Below the pieces are notes generated by a model. That model saw only the letters and a list, made by a program, of their open reading frames with translations, searched no databases and was not told the origin of the DNA. The position numbers and the translations under genes were made by a program. This document shows positions 3,287-61,905 of a DNA stretch of 64,000 nucleotides, piece by piece (within the stretch, counting starts at the first letter, position 1; every line of letters begins with the position of its first letter). Source of the stretch: a bacterium (GTDB lineage Bacteria > Actinomycetota > Acidimicrobiia > Spongiisociales > JAENVV01). The DNA lies in NCBI GenBank assembly GCA_024641305.1, contig JAHEDI010000007.1:47664-111663 (forward strand), in the 5' to 3' direction.

Positions 3287-3642
3287 CTGGTGGATCTCCG
3301 CTGTACATACGTGGTCAATCGATCACGAACCACTCTACGAACCAGCGGGGCCATCAGTGAGAATCCGACCAGGTCAGTCAAGAGTCCGGGAGTCAACAAA
3401 AACGCCCCACCCACCAGAATCAGCGCCCCGTCTGCCAGTTCGCCGGCCGGCAGCTTCCCTTGTTGAAATGCGGCTCCGATCGCTCTCCAGGCGTTGGTTC
3501 CTTGCCGCTTCACCAGATAGGCACCGATCAAGCCGGTGACCACGACGATTCCGAGGGCTATCTCCCAACCGATGACGCCGGACAAATAGACCAGCAAGCC
3601 CATCTCGAGGGCGGGTATCACGATGAAGAGGACCGGCAGCAT
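3283..3642 (-). CDS. FxsA family membrane protein
   Basis: LFIVIPALEMGLLVYLSGVIGWEIALGIVVVTGLIGAYLVKRQG...PAGELADGALILVGGAFLLTPGLLTDLVGFSLM. Confidence 0.9.
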   Translation of the reverse strand: MLPVLFIVIPALEMGLLVYLSGVIGWEIALGIVVVTGLIGAYLVKRQGTNAWRAIGAAFQQGKLPAGELADGALILVGGAFLLTPGLLTDLVGFSLMAPLVRRVVRDRLTTYVQRRSTR

Positions 3643-3675
3643 GCGCCGAAAGCCTAACGGGTACCATTACCAACC

Positions 3676-5013
3676 ATGACTCTCCGTGACCTGCCTTCGG
3701 TCGATGCGCTCGCCAGACAACTCAACGGAATCCCCCGGGTCGTAGCCACCGAGGTGGCCCGTTCGTCCCTTGAGGAGGCTCGACGTCTCCTGGTTGACGG
3801 CCAGCCCGCCGACGCCAGCGAGATCGCCGCCGCCCACGCCCGAAGGCTCGCCAGGCTCAAATTCCGGTCACTGATCAACGCCACCGGCGTGCTGCTCCAC
3901 ACCAACCTTGGCCGGGCCCCGGTGCACCCTGACGCCGTTCGGGCTGCCGCTGAGGCAACTCTGGGGTATGGCAACCTCGAATTTGACCTCGACCAGGGTG
4001 AACGAGGCGGGCGGGGTGCCTATGTGCACGAATTGCTCATGGCTTTGACCGGCGCAGAAGCTGCCCTGGTCGTCAACAATAACGCGGCCGCGTTGCTACT
4101 GGCCCTGGCCACGCTTGGAACGTCAAAAGGGGTCGTAGTCTCGCGAGGTGAACTGATCGAGATTGGCGGGTCATATCGGCTCCCCGAACTCATGGCGGCA
4201 TCCGGCGCAGAGATGATCGAAGTCGGAACCACCAATCGGACCAGAATCGCCGATTATGCGCAAGTGGCACCAGCTGCGGGCCTGCTTCTGAAAGTCCACC
4301 CGTCGAACTACCGGGTGGTCGGCTTTACCGAATCAGCCGCCAGCCAGGAACTCGTCGAACTTTCCCGCCGCAGCGACGTACCGTATGCCTACGACGTCGG
4401 TTCCGGTCTGGTAGATGAGACCAGCCCCTGGATCTCCGGACCTCCCCCAAACTGGCTGGCAGGAGAACCTGGCGTACGTCAGGAAATCGACCGGGGAACT
4501 GGCCTCGTCATGTTCTCCGGAGACAAACTCTTTGGCGGACCGCAGGCCGGGATCATGGTCGGCGAAAGCCACCTCATCAAACGCATCAAGTCACATCCGA
4601 TGGCCAGAGCCATGCGCGTGCCAGGACCGACCCTGGCGGCCCTGGCGGTAATCACCGAAATGTACCTGGACGGGCGGGCCCTCGAGATCCCGTTCTGGAG
4701 GATGGCAACTGCCCCATACGAACACCTTGAAATTCGGTTGCAAGCCCTACTCGACGCGGGCATCCCGGGCACGATCATCGAAAGCACCTCGTTGTTGGGA
4801 GCCGGGTCGGTGCCCGGAATGACCGTGGCATCACCAGCACTCCAGGTCACCGCTCAAGCCGATCGGCTGTGGGACGAGCTGTTGGCCGCCGAACGCCCAC
4901 TGATCGGACGGCGGGAGGCAGGGGCCTTCCTCGTCGACCTTCGATCGGTCAACCCCGACGAGGACGCATCGGTGGCCGCCACGTTGCGGGCTGCTGTCGC
5001 CGCATGCCAGTAG
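3676..5013 (+). CDS. selA: L-seryl-tRNA(Sec) selenium transferase
   Basis: INATGVLLHTNLGRAPV, FDLDQGERGGRG, VNNNAAALLLALATL, FSGDKLFGGPQAGI. Confidence 0.95.
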   Translation: MTLRDLPSVDALARQLNGIPRVVATEVARSSLEEARRLLVDGQPADASEIAAAHARRLARLKFRSLINATGVLLHTNLGRAPVHPDAVRAAAEATLGYGNLEFDLDQGERGGRGAYVHELLMALTGAEAALVVNNNAAALLLALATLGTSKGVVVSRGELIEIGGSYRLPELMAASGAEMIEVGTTNRTRIADYAQVAPAAGLLLKVHPSNYRVVGFTESAASQELVELSRRSDVPYAYDVGSGLVDETSPWISGPPPNWLAGEPGVRQEIDRGTGLVMFSGDKLFGGPQAGIMVGESHLIKRIKSHPMARAMRVPGPTLAALAVITEMYLDGRALEIPFWRMATAPYEHLEIRLQALLDAGIPGTIIESTSLLGAGSVPGMTVASPALQVTAQADRLWDELLAAERPLIGRREAGAFLVDLRSVNPDEDASVAATLRAAVAACQ

Positions 5014-6797
5014 TCGGTACCGCGGGCCATGTGGATCATGGCAAATCCACACTCATCCAGGCACTGACCGGCCGGGACCCCGACCGCCTCGCCGAAGAAA
5101 AAACTCGTGGGTTGACGATCGACCTTGGTTTTGCCTGGACTGATCTTGACGGAATCGAGGTGTCATTTGTTGACGTTCCCGGCCACGAACGGTTCATGAA
5201 GAACATGCTGGCCGGCACAGAGGCAATCGACATCGCCATCCTGGTCGTGGCTGCCGACGAGGGCTGGATGCCCCAGACGGAAGAACACCTCGCGGTCCTC
5301 GACCTCCTCGGGGTTTCCCTCGGCGTCGTCGCCATAACCAAGACCGATCGGGTTGATCCCGAATTGCTCGAACTCGCCGAACTGGAGATCGAAGAACAGG
5401 TGGCAGGCACCGCCTTCGAGACGGCCCGACTCATCGCAGTGTCTGCGATGAACGGCGACGGACTCGACGACCTTCGTACCGAGCTGCGGTCGCTCTGCGA
5501 ACAAGCCGAGACCCGACGGATCCTCAAAGATCCAGCGTTGTGGGTTGATCGCTCCTTCAGCATCGACGGCGCCGGAACCGTTGTGACCGGGACGCTTCTG
5601 GGCGGTCCTCTATCAGTTGGCCAGACGCTTTCGGCCTGGCCGGGTGGTCACTCGGTTCGGATTCGCACGTTGCACAGCCATGAGCAGACCCACGAAACGG
5701 TTTTCGCCGGTCGGCGCACGGCCGCCAATCTGGTCGGGATAACCAGGGATCAGATCGCCAGAGGGTCGCTCCTTTCCCCTTCACCGTGGCCGACCAGTTC
5801 TTCGTTCAGTGTGGTTATGCGACCTGCTCGATACGCAGATGACGTCGGCGAGCGAGGGGCCTACCACCTCCATATGGGATCCGGTTCGTGGCCGGTCGAG
5901 CTCCGACCGTTGACCGGCAACGAGGACCCTGACGTTGGAAATCCGATGACGGCGCTGATCAGGTCTGAAATCCCACTTCCGGTCCGGGTCGGGGAGCGCT
6001 TCATCCTGCGCGAAACCGGTCGGCAATCGGTGGTTGCCGGAGGTCGCATCGTCGATCCGGCCGCCCCCCGTCGGGCGGCAGAAGCTCGCCAGGCGCTTCG
6101 TCAACTAGAAGGAATCCTTGAAGCCGATCAGAACGATGCCGCCACCCAACTTCTTGACGCCCGCGGCATCTGCACCGTCCATGAACTCGCCGGTTGGACG
6201 GGCGGCGGGTACCCCCGCACCGGTCTCACACGCGGCGATGTGGCCATTTCCGTCGGGCGGGTAGCCGAATTGCTGACCTCGGCGGTGCACGATGTTGCCG
6301 CTTTCCATCACGAACACCCATTACGAGAGGGGATGCCGGTCGCCAGTCTGGCAAGTCGCCTCAACCTTGACATCGACACCACCCGAGCACTCCTTGCCAT
6401 GGACGACCGGGTGCGCGACGACGGACCGACCACCGCCCTGATTACGTTCAACGCCGGTCTGACGGACACTCAGGAATCGCAACTCATAACGGTCATCGGT
6501 CAACTGACAACCGCCGGATTTAACGTGCCAAGGCTCGACGAACTCAACCTCGACCGCGAACTGCTCCACATAGCGCTCCGGGAAGGCAGGCTGGTCCGAG
6601 TCTCAGATGATCTGGTGTTCCTCCCCGACCAAATCGAGGCCATCGGGAGCCGGCTACGAGAATTGCCCACCCCGTTCGGGGTGGGCAATTTCAAGGATGT
6701 CATTGGAGTATCGCGCAAGTACGCAGTGCCACTGCTCGAGTACTTCGACGCGCTTGGAGTTACCCAACGCGTCGGGAACGATCGGATCCTGCGCTAG
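5004..6797 (+). CDS. selB: Selenocysteine-specific translation elongation factor SelB
   Basis: MPVVGTAGHVDHGKSTLIQALTGRDPDRLAEEKTRGLTIDLGFAW; C-terminal winged helices ending FKDVIGVSRKYAVPLLEYFDALGVTQRVGNDRILR. ATG at 5004 lies in the supplied ORF frame and overlaps the selA stop. Confidence 0.95.
   Translation: MPVVGTAGHVDHGKSTLIQALTGRDPDRLAEEKTRGLTIDLGFAWTDLDGIEVSFVDVPGHERFMKNMLAGTEAIDIAILVVAADEGWMPQTEEHLAVLDLLGVSLGVVAITKTDRVDPELLELAELEIEEQVAGTAFETARLIAVSAMNGDGLDDLRTELRSLCEQAETRRILKDPALWVDRSFSIDGAGTVVTGTLLGGPLSVGQTLSAWPGGHSVRIRTLHSHEQTHETVFAGRRTAANLVGITRDQIARGSLLSPSPWPTSSSFSVVMRPARYADDVGERGAYHLHMGSGSWPVELRPLTGNEDPDVGNPMTALIRSEIPLPVRVGERFILRETGRQSVVAGGRIVDPAAPRRAAEARQALRQLEGILEADQNDAATQLLDARGICTVHELAGWTGGGYPRTGLTRGDVAISVGRVAELLTSAVHDVAAFHHEHPLREGMPVASLASRLNLDIDTTRALLAMDDRVRDDGPTTALITFNAGLTDTQESQLITVIGQLTTAGFNVPRLDELNLDRELLHIALREGRLVRVSDDLVFLPDQIEAIGSRLRELPTPFGVGNFKDVIGVSRKYAVPLLEYFDALGVTQRVGNDRILR
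6661..6690. repeat. Perfect 13-bp inverted repeat (4-nt loop) inside the 3' part of selB
   Basis: AATTGCCCACCCC-GTTC-GGGGTGGGCAATT. Confidence 0.85.
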
Positions 6798-56354: not shown

Positions 56355-56441
56355 CTTCTCCAATCAGGATGTTGACTCAAGCGTTTCATATCGCAGCCGA
56401 TGTACACTGCAAGTCACAACTGAGATCAAGCTACAACTTGA

Positions 56442-56610
56442 AGCGCCTGACCCCGTCTAGGGGTGACGAGGAGGAGAATCATCGAAAGCGACCCCGGTCG
56501 CGTCGGCGGATGTTCTCCCGGCCGCTCACGGTCGTAACGCTGGTGGACAAAACCCGACGGCAACGCCGGGGACAATTCTCACCGCGACGTGAGGGGATCT
56601 ACCAAAGGTC
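56442..56610 (+). ncRNA. glmS-type self-cleaving ribozyme (glucosamine-6-phosphate responsive); 3' boundary approximate
   Basis: A|GCGCCTGAC, TGACGAGGAGGAGAATCATCGA, GTCGGCGGATGTTCTCCCGGC match the conserved glmS ribozyme core in order, directly upstream of glmS. Confidence 0.9.
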
Positions 56611-58550: not shown

Positions 58551-58967
58551 CTAGACGGCCGGGTCGTGAACGCGGACGGTCACCACCGGGCATGGCGCTT
58601 CCATAATGATCGCCTGGGCGTTACTTCCCAGGATGAGCTTGCCGAGGCTCGATCGTCGTCTGACCCCGATCACAATCAAGTCTGCCGCTTCCGATCTGGC
58701 GACATCAACGATATCTTCAACCGGCTTGTTTCCAAGCACGAGGCCGGCCAGACGGAAGTTCGAGATACCTTCGTCGCGCAGTCGCTGTTCGATCCGCTCT
58801 CCCGCCTCGCGGTAGGCAATCACATCTTCGTCCTTGTCGTGATCACCGCCCCGTGCGGAGTGAATAATCACCAGCCGCGCGTCACTACGCTTTGCTTCGG
58901 CGATCGCCCAGTCGAGGGCCACCTTGCCTTCGCCAGTCAATACAAACCCAACCACGATTGTGCTCAT
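58551..58967 (-). CDS. Universal stress protein (UspA family)
   Basis: STIVVGFVLTGEGKVALDWAIAEAKRSDARLVIIHSA...VIGVRRRSSLGKLILGSNAQAIIMEAPCPVVTV. Confidence 0.92.
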   Translation of the reverse strand: MSTIVVGFVLTGEGKVALDWAIAEAKRSDARLVIIHSARGGDHDKDEDVIAYREAGERIEQRLRDEGISNFRLAGLVLGNKPVEDIVDVARSEAADLIVIGVRRRSSLGKLILGSNAQAIIMEAPCPVVTVRVHDPAV

Positions 58968-59079
58968 CAAGATCCTCTCGTTGTCGTTCATTCTCGTCAC
59001 TTCATTTCCCGCATGCGTCCTTTCTCGCCATCTACACGTAGCCAGGGTTCGAAGTCCGACTCGGTGTCATACTGGGCAG

Positions 59080-59730
59080 GTGCAAAGAACTGTTCGCGCG
59101 TTCATCTACGGCTACTTCCGAGACGAAGCTGCTGCCCCAACTGTCGCAACGATTGCCGATCAGCTCTCTCTTTCGACCTCAGCGGTGGAAGAAGCCCTTG
59201 AGAGACTCGCCGAATCACATGCCATCGTGTTACAGCCAGGAACCCACACGATATGGATGGCTCATCCTTTCTCAGGGATCCCGACCGACTACACCGCAAC
59301 CGTGGCAGACCGGACCTGGTTCGCTAACTGCGGGTGGGACTCGATCGCCATCCTGGCGTTGCTCGGAGATGGAACGTTCGCCTCAAAAGATCCACTCACC
59401 GGGGCGACCAACCAGTGGACCGTCAAAGGCGGCGCCATCGTTCCCGACGGCGTTGTGCATTTCCTGGTGCCAGCCCGACAGTTCTGGGACGACATCGGCT
59501 ACACCTGAGGCAACATTATGGCCTTCCGGTCGGAAGGCGATATCAAACTATGGGTACAGTCACGAGGAACCGAAATCGGGGCAATCGTAGATATGCAAAC
59601 CGTGTTTCAATTAGGCCATGATTGGTATTCGGGGCGGTTCGACCCAAACTGGGACCGCCCTGACGCCGATGACGTCGTTTCTATGTTTGCCTCGCTCGGA
59701 CTAACCGGCCCATTCTGGTCACTGGGCTAG
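59080..59730 (+). CDS. MerB (organomercurial/alkylmercury lyase)-family protein, candidate selenoprotein with Sec encoded by TGA at 59506-59508
   Basis: ORFs 58924..59508 and 59518..59730 share one frame, separated only by TGA. Joined (216 aa): HPFSGIPTDYTATVADRTWFANCGWDSIAILALLG...FLVPARQFWDDIGYT[U]GNIMAFRSEGDIKLW...LGLTGPFWSLG. GTG start inferred at 59080. Confidence 0.88.
59506..59538 (+). promoter_or_regulatory. Candidate bacterial SECIS element: recoded UGA plus downstream hairpin GCCTTCC-GGTC-GGAAGGC
   Basis: Perfect 7-bp stem 59521-59527/59532-59538, apical loop GGUC starting 20 nt after the UGA (19-nt spacer). Confidence 0.85.
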
Positions 59731-59806: not shown

Positions 59807-60487
59807 ATGGACGCTCGCATTCTTATCGTCGAAGACGACGAATCGATCCGAGAGACAACTGCCATCGGGCTTCGACAGGCGGGCTTCACCGTGGCAGAGG
59901 CCTCCGATGGTCACGAGGGCTTAAGGTTGTTTCGGGACTGGCACCCTGACGCGATTCTGCTCGATGTGATGCTGCCAAAACTCGACGGGCTTGAGGTCTG
60001 TCGCTCCATCCGCAAGGAAGCCACCGTTCCCATCGTTATGCTGACGGCCCGGTCTGACACGATCGACGTGGTCGTTGGGCTCGAAGCCGGTGCTGATGAC
60101 TACATCACCAAGCCATTCGAGTTCCCGGTCCTCGTGGCTCGTCTCCGGGCCGTCCTGCGGCGGTCAACCGAGACACACCTAGCCGAGCTACTGAGGTTGG
60201 GACCACTGACGATCGACCAGACGGGCTATGAGGTCATCAAAGACGAGGAGCTCATCCGGCTGAGCAATACTGAATTTGAACTGCTGGCTACGCTCGCCAG
60301 CCGTCCCAAGCAGGTGTTCACCCGAGAAATGTTGCTGGATCAGGTCTGGGGCTACGACTATCTCGGCGACTCTCGACTCGTCGATGTGGCCGTCCAGCGC
60401 TTGCGCGCAAAAGTAGAAGACAACCCGGCCGAACCGGTCCTGATTTTGACGGTACGCGGTGTGGGCTATCGCGCCGGTCACGGCTGA
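59807..60487 (+). CDS. OmpR-family response regulator
   Basis: RILIVEDDESIRETTAIGLRQAGF...ADDYITKPFEFPVLVARLRAVLRR...VWGYDYLGDSRLVDVAVQRLRAKVEDNPAEPVLILTVRGVGYRAG. Confidence 0.95.
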   Translation: MDARILIVEDDESIRETTAIGLRQAGFTVAEASDGHEGLRLFRDWHPDAILLDVMLPKLDGLEVCRSIRKEATVPIVMLTARSDTIDVVVGLEAGADDYITKPFEFPVLVARLRAVLRRSTETHLAELLRLGPLTIDQTGYEVIKDEELIRLSNTEFELLATLASRPKQVFTREMLLDQVWGYDYLGDSRLVDVAVQRLRAKVEDNPAEPVLILTVRGVGYRAGHG

Positions 60488-61905
60488 TGCGTCGGCGGCT
60501 CATCGGGACGACCCTCACATTGGTCGGGTTGACCGCCGCCGTACTCGCTGCGGCGGTTTGGCTGGTCGTGTCAGGCGCCTTACGGAGCCAACTGGTCGCC
60601 GACACGACCAGTCGCGTGGAGTTCGCTGCAGCCGTACTAGCCCCTGCCAGGCTCGATGCCACACCAACCCTCGACGAGTTCGTGGCGGCACAGTTCGACG
60701 CTGATCTCCGTCTCGCCGGCGATGAGGGTCTCTACGTCGACTTCGGCGAAGGAGAACCGTTCGTCTCAGGGTTCCGGTTCTCAACGCCCCCCGACGCTCA
60801 ACTGGTGTCGCCGGTGGCCGACGGCAACCTGGCCTGGCAGTGGACGACGGTCGCCAATGCGGGCTACCTCGTGGCCGGTGCCCGCACGCCATCGACCGGC
60901 CCCGACCTGTATCTCTTCGTTCCGACGGCCGAACTTGATGCGACCCTGGCATCCTTGCGGAACGCGGCTCTCCTGGTAGGCCTTCTCGTGATCGCCATCG
61001 GAGGACTCGTCGCCAGGCGAGTGGCTCGTCAGGTACTCAAACCCGTTGGTGAGGCAGCCCATGCCGCCCGGAAGATGGCGGCCGGCGACCTGGCAACCCG
61101 ACTCGATGACAACTCGACCGACGAATTCGGCGACTGGGCAGGTGCATTCAATCAGATGGCTGTCAGTCTCGAATCGACCATTGCCCAACTGCGCGCTTCT
61201 GAGGAACTACAGCGGCGGTTCGTTGCCGATGTCGCCCACGAACTACGCACGCCGGTCACCGGTCTCGTCAACGAAGCCGAATTACTCCGACGTCAGATCG
61301 ACGAACTACCGGGCGAACTGCGGCGCGTGGCGCAGCTTCTTATTCACGACGTCGGCAGGTTGCGTCGATTGGTTGACGATCTGCTCGAAATCTCTCGACT
61401 CGATGCCTCGTCCGACCCGATCCGACCCGAACCCTTCGACATTCGGGACTTTCTCAAGGCCCATGTCGCTGATCGACTGCCCGGAGCGGTCCTGGCATGC
61501 GAACTGCACAGGATTGTTACCGATCGTCGGCGACTCGACCGGATCGTCGGCAACGTATTGAGCAACGCGGCCTCCCACGCCGGGGGTAGCAAAGTGGACA
61601 TAGAAAGCTATGTGGACGATGGACGGCTCACGATCTTGATATCGGATCGAGGACCCGGATTCGACGGGGACCTCGAGTGGTTATTCGGCAGGTTCTCGCA
61701 GGCCGACGCTTCCCGGTCAGGGTCCGGTTCGGGCCTTGGCCTGGCGATCGCCCGGGACCACGCTCGATCACTCGGCGGCGATCTCGCTGCTGTCCGCCGC
61801 ACCGCTGGCGGGCTGACATTTCGACTCGACATACCTGTGACAGAACTGTTACCCAACGGTGAAGATGATGTGACGTTGGCGTCGCATGATGAAGGTGAAC
61901 GATGA
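60487..61905 (+). CDS. Sensor histidine kinase (HAMP-HisKA-HATPase)
   Basis: HAMP region, FVADVAHELRTPVTGLVNEAELL, ISDRGPGFDGDLEWLFGRFSQADASRSGSGSGLGLAIARDHARSLGG. Confidence 0.94.
   Translation: MRRRLIGTTLTLVGLTAAVLAAAVWLVVSGALRSQLVADTTSRVEFAAAVLAPARLDATPTLDEFVAAQFDADLRLAGDEGLYVDFGEGEPFVSGFRFSTPPDAQLVSPVADGNLAWQWTTVANAGYLVAGARTPSTGPDLYLFVPTAELDATLASLRNAALLVGLLVIAIGGLVARRVARQVLKPVGEAAHAARKMAAGDLATRLDDNSTDEFGDWAGAFNQMAVSLESTIAQLRASEELQRRFVADVAHELRTPVTGLVNEAELLRRQIDELPGELRRVAQLLIHDVGRLRRLVDDLLEISRLDASSDPIRPEPFDIRDFLKAHVADRLPGAVLACELHRIVTDRRRLDRIVGNVLSNAASHAGGSKVDIESYVDDGRLTILISDRGPGFDGDLEWLFGRFSQADASRSGSGSGLGLAIARDHARSLGGDLAAVRRTAGGLTFRLDIPVTELLPNGEDDVTLASHDEGER

Follow-up and report, generated by a model that had tools for sequence, protein, structure and literature searches.

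Does the reading frame at 59080 to 59730 (plus strand) of the window, by which we mean the whole 64,000-nucleotide stretch of DNA analysed, encode a relative of MerB in which a selenocysteine (Sec) stands in for a catalytic cysteine, and if so, what would such a protein do? MerB is the enzyme that cleaves carbon-mercury bonds. The gene starts with GTG, ends with a TAG stop at 59728-59730 and encodes 216 residues, with a single in-frame TGA at codon 143 (59506-59508, plus strand). The sequence-only reading had placed this codon by hand opposite Cys159 of MerB, and had recognised a C-x-x-D motif upstream. Comparison with the MerB and MerB2 structures by phmmer returns the same pairing: Cys84 (TGC, 59329-59331, plus strand) aligns with Cys96, Asp87 (GAC, 59338-59340, plus strand) with Asp99, residue 143 with Cys159 and Gly144 with Cys160. 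The interval 59329-59508 singled out by that reading runs exactly from Cys84 to residue 143, with a spacing of 59. Moreover, the protein matches the Pfam MerB family (PF03243) at 69.1 bits (cut-off 27), and practically all members of the family alignment have an intact Cys-x-x-Asp motif followed by Sec or Cys.

The predicted structure is in line with this assignment. An AlphaFold model built from a 56-row alignment reaches a pLDDT of 97.3, and all 11 of its significant PDB matches in Foldseek are MerB or MerB2 (best 5c17, E 7e-10, TM 0.70); on this model the fold is that of MerB. The window protein thus shares with MerB (R831b-type; 3f0o, 1s6l) and Bacillus MerB2 (5c17) the fold, the equivalents of Cys96 and Asp99 and the spacing to position 159, but differs in having Sec for Cys159 and Gly for Cys160, in the want of a mer operon and, usually, of MerA in the genome, and in falling under the NCBIfam cut-offs. 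Its scores against the two canonical MerB equivalog models are 29.7 bits (cut-off 193) and 16.9 bits (cut-off 200). Assignment to canonical MerB was rejected on these scores, on the replacement of Cys159 and on the missing mer operon and MerA. Over 56 members the best E-values are 3e-16 with the MerB model and 7e-16 with that of SaoL, a MerB-like selenoprotein discussed below, and so NCBIfam (June 2026) seems to hold no model for the family. Trp86 and His127 are invariant or nearly so among its members and are not seen in the canonical MerB rows. Because the Sec codon is read as a stop, family members resemble broken genes in ordinary annotation.

The case for selenocysteine begins with the conservation of the codon itself. 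A stop-readthrough search of 99 relative genomes gave a match in 29; exactly one internal stop, always TGA, was found in the window's own genome and in 22 of these relatives, two of which (L032, L036) carry instead a paralogue described below, with Glu in place of Asp87. TGA occupies the codon-143 column in 139 aligned rows, gene duplicates counted, well above what chance would give. When the family alignment was searched against a genome collection, 79 of the 80 loci fetched had TGA and one had Cys (Actinomadura harenae, L121), a proportion which is not an unbiased Sec to Cys ratio since these are the best 80 of 329. By their record titles the 80 loci cover at least eight phyla (Actinomycetota, Acidobacteriota, Gemmatimonadota, Chloroflexota, Thermodesulfobacteriota, Pseudomonadota, Marinimicrobia and Calditrichota), with the proviso that many family sequences are contigs of metagenome-assembled genomes (MAGs) and that some MAG titles are doubtful (e.g., L055 and L088, titled Acidobacteria). 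The family is large and apparently uncatalogued.

Immediately downstream of the UGA lies a hairpin with the features of a bacterial SECIS (GCCUUCC-GGUC-GGAAGGC, 59521-59538, plus strand, fold z -2.55), with a 7-bp stem and a GGUC loop at 59528-59531, 15-32 nt from the first base of the UGA. GGTC is found at the loop offset in 98 of 106 distinct Sec rows versus none of 11 Cys rows. Codon choice within the element is frozen, Arg150 being CGG in 88 of 90 rows and Ser151 TCG in 86 of 86, whereas control codons outside it vary (Ser65 TCG 45/87, Arg6 CGG 21/89, Arg186 CGG 44/90). Two stem pairs flanking this frozen core covary, with several pair types and with pairing above all 2000 shuffles; given that shuffles ignore relatedness, this figure alone is no probability, and the spread across phyla is the stronger argument. 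Purifying selection also acts on the codons that follow the TGA, where dN/dS is as low as upstream (0.07-0.14 after the UGA versus 0.11-0.17 before it, in four comparisons). Finally, Cys homologues fill the same column, and two of them (L029 and L121) branch within the Sec clade of the tree, on long branches. Loss of Sec in the family is often accompanied by loss of the acid, as Asp87 is also Cys (CxWC...C) in the Cys homologues L029, L172, L173 and L174. The plasmid-borne CxWC...C homologues of Ralstonia, Paraburkholderia and Sphingomonas, with about 31-34% identity over at least 90% of the length, likewise have Cys in place of both Sec and Asp87, as in L029.

The machinery for selenocysteine insertion is encoded in the same genome. 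Within the window, selA (selenocysteine synthase, 3676-5013, plus strand; TIGR00474, 425 bits, cut-off 268) is followed by selB (selenocysteine elongation factor, 5004-6797, plus strand; TIGR00475, 353 bits, cut-off 242), while selD and a tRNA-Sec with anticodon TCA reside elsewhere in the genome, so that all four components of bacterial selenoprotein synthesis are present. The selD gene (L046, G000:C60:41802-42731, minus strand) has an in-frame TGA of its own, so its product, selenophosphate synthetase, probably contains Sec as well. Among 50 other host genomes, many of them incomplete, 43 have tRNA-Sec; co-occurrence with SelB is uninformative, because 83 of the 99 relatives carry SelB over the cut-off. 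SelB would bring Sec to the UGA at 59506 by way of the GGUC hairpin. That UGA is ordinarily a stop codon is the sole point in favour of truncation or of a pseudogene in decay, and we consider this explanation wholly improbable and reject it: the identical TGA is retained in loci of many phyla, selection continues past it, a covarying SECIS follows it, the Sec machinery is encoded and homologues have Cys at the same column. The UGA at 59506-59508 is read as selenocysteine, and the window gene is a true MerB-superfamily selenoprotein in which Sec143 replaces the catalytic Cys159, as the sequence-only reading had held.

A selenocysteine at this position already has a precedent. The Sec-assisted organometallic (SAO) system and its protein SaoL were reportedly described by Haft and Gwadz in 2023. 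According to a review, SaoL is a MerB-like selenoprotein acting as the organometallic lyase of that system (NF040728; PMC13188914), and an earlier list already gives the accession of SaoL to a single "alkylmercury lyase MerB-like protein" (PMC9312934); the original authors behind this entry may have met members of the present family. A Desulfuromonas genome that has a member of this family also has a SaoL over the cut-off, whose Sec aligns with U143. The two proteins share the MerB superfamily, the C-x-x-D motif and Sec at the Cys159 column. In contrast, the window protein scores 23.8 bits against the NF040728 cut-off of 140, on which membership in SaoL was rejected; SaoL has a Cys immediately before Sec (the CU motif), where the window protein has Thr; and SaoL is placed in an operon of selenoproteins and transporters, whereas the window gene stands alone, with glmS, an MtrAB-like pair and a gene for a universal stress protein around it, and belongs to a clade of its own on the tree. 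The product of 59080-59730 is thus a selenium-containing MerB-fold protein of a separate, stand-alone family.

Further variation at the catalytic positions is found among its relatives. At the positions of Cys96, Asp99 and Cys159, and counting duplicates, 117 rows read C-D-U, 10 C-E-U, 7 U-E-U and 5 U-D-U, the remainder having Cys at the Cys159 position. The U-D-U proteins (L063, L072, L074, L078 and L086), from MAGs titled Desulfobacterota and Chloroflexi, have Sec at both thiol positions and form a single, fully supported branch nested in the C-D-U clade, so a single gain of the second selenol is probable. In four of the five U-D-U genes the GGUC loop is replaced by another hairpin (loop approximately AGTTC) after the second UGA, and the assignment of Sec in them rests mainly on the conservation of both TGAs. 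The C-E-U/U-E-U sequences represent a paralogue that likewise adopts the MerB fold in its model (pLDDT 81) and whose profile matches that of the present family (E 1.7e-34). In genome G037 the two types adjoin, a C-E-U gene (L157, 2176-2835, plus strand) converging on a C-D-U gene (approximately 3323-3961, minus strand). Most U-E-U genes (L150-L155) have, 14-31 nt beyond their first UGA, a hairpin (GCUGGC-CGUGC-GCUGGC or near) that is a candidate second SECIS. In relatives the second thiol position also became Sec, the rest of the domain being free of such changes, which argues for a pair of soft-metal ligands.

Some U-E-U domains are fused to signalling or ATPase modules. In three genomes, one of them in the window's own genus, the domain is followed by a C-terminal class III adenylate/guanylate cyclase (PF00211; L178:7452-8630, plus strand; L179:3112-4254, minus strand; L180:8929-10131, plus strand). 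The metal-binding motifs of the fused cyclases, FTDIVDST and GDGF, look intact, and a MerR-family regulator lies directly upstream of the fusion in L178 (6632-7123). Fusion to an AAA ATPase occurs in four genomes, in one by Pfam (PF00004; L177, minus strand, Sec at 6074) and in three by sequence similarity of the extension (L176 and L184, plus strand; L185, minus strand; L186, plus strand). In genome G026, a MerA over the cut-off is encoded about 3 kb from the ATPase fusion gene. On account of these fusions, at least the U-E-U paralogue can be argued to be a sensor or switch.

The surroundings of the window gene offer no link to a mer system. A universal stress protein gene (58551-59000, minus strand) is the divergent neighbour; downstream are an MtrA-like response regulator (59807-60487, plus strand; NF040689, 292 bits, slightly under the cut-off of 300) and an MtrB-like histidine kinase (60487-61905, plus strand; best model NF040691, far under its cut-off). 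A glmS ribozyme (RF00234, 77.8 bits) is located at 56431-56595 (plus strand), right upstream of glmS, in this actinobacterium of the class Acidimicrobiia. The initial observation that mer genes are lacking nearby extends to the family: there is none among the window neighbours and none recurs when 57 flanking genes are tallied by Pfam. Clustering of flanking ORFs at 81 loci revealed no operon partners beyond within-group synteny, as with translation genes clustered in Chloroflexi or, in the genus of the window, the surroundings of glmS; flanks were called by a simple ORF rule, and the biggest clusters looked like fragments of the selenoprotein gene itself. No phage match was found. MerA over the cut-off is absent from the window's own genome, and present in 2 of 21 Sec-carrying relatives versus 18 of 78 others and in 2 of 50 further host genomes; matches under the cut-off were not counted because every genome has some. 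This scarcity is weak counter-evidence to mercury detoxification, as about half of merB-carrying genomes are also devoid of merA (906 of 1795; PMC8261052).

What, then, would the protein do? We rank an organometal lyase first, a sensor or binder second and an enzyme with a different substrate third. From the sequence, there is about an even chance that the window protein is a stand-alone organometal lyase, most likely acting on methylmercury or similar organomercurials. The three catalytic positions and the MerB fold speak for it, with an active-site geometry deduced from homology. In such a scenario Cys84 and Sec143 would bind the soft metal, Asp87 would protonate the leaving carbon, and the metal remaining on the Cys/Sec pair would pass to cellular thiols or selenols instead of MerA. 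With a selenolate, the metal would be bound more strongly and protonolysis would go faster; selone mimics of organomercurial lyase cleave the Hg-C bond faster than their sulfur analogues (PMC11639659). Against a lyase, there are no adjacent mer genes and MerA is rare in the hosts, a Cys/Sec site with no MerA to relieve it may grip Hg(II) so tightly that turnover fails, and the fusions of the double-Sec paralogue to cyclase and ATPase point to sensing, at least in that paralogue.

These same fusions, together with the missing MerA and mer operon, favour the possibility that the Sec-containing MerB fold is a sensor or binder of soft metals or organometals, with Cys84 and Sec143 capturing the ligand for signalling or sequestration. 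The N-terminal helical domain, which resembles a LexA-type winged helix (24.9 bits versus 23.7), points the same way, but that of true MerB is likewise a winged-helix relic. Since the window protein, like almost every C-D-U protein, has no output domain, and since these proteins retain Asp87, an acid dispensable for mere binding, we find this role rather unlikely for the window protein. Slightly less likely still is a lyase or other enzyme unrelated to mercury, with an organotin, organolead, organoarsenic, organoselenium or thiol compound as its substrate. The family-specific Trp86 and His127, host habitats that are not mercury-specific and scores under both canonical equivalog cut-offs would suit such a substrate; yet MerB has the same three catalytic positions, and the nearest solved structures are mercury-bound MerB2 and MerB.

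In this context, and returning to the organomercurial lyase, we put forward tentatively, as a proposal that may well prove mistaken, that bacteria from soils, sediments and waters, across at least eight phyla, commonly break methylmercury by a selenium-dependent route that needs neither a mer operon nor MerA, and that the same superfamily holds a double-selenol clade and a double-Sec sensor fused to cyclase or ATPase. This route would have been missed because merB surveys employ a signature that demands Cys159 (PMC8261052) and gene callers stop at UGA. Beyond the precedent of SaoL, the locus brings a large stand-alone family, a double-Sec clade and a signalling-fused paralogue. Should the protein prove to be a lyase, organomercurial lyases of an entire class would have gone unseen, as their UGA-split genes fail the Cys159-based criteria for merB, and the methylmercury demethylation potential of soils and waters would be undercounted. 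If not, the family would still show something seldom seen, the replacement by selenols of the two catalytic thiols of a well-studied fold, first one and then the other. The natural Cys, single-Sec and double-Sec members would provide a direct test of the role of selenium in soft-metal chemistry.
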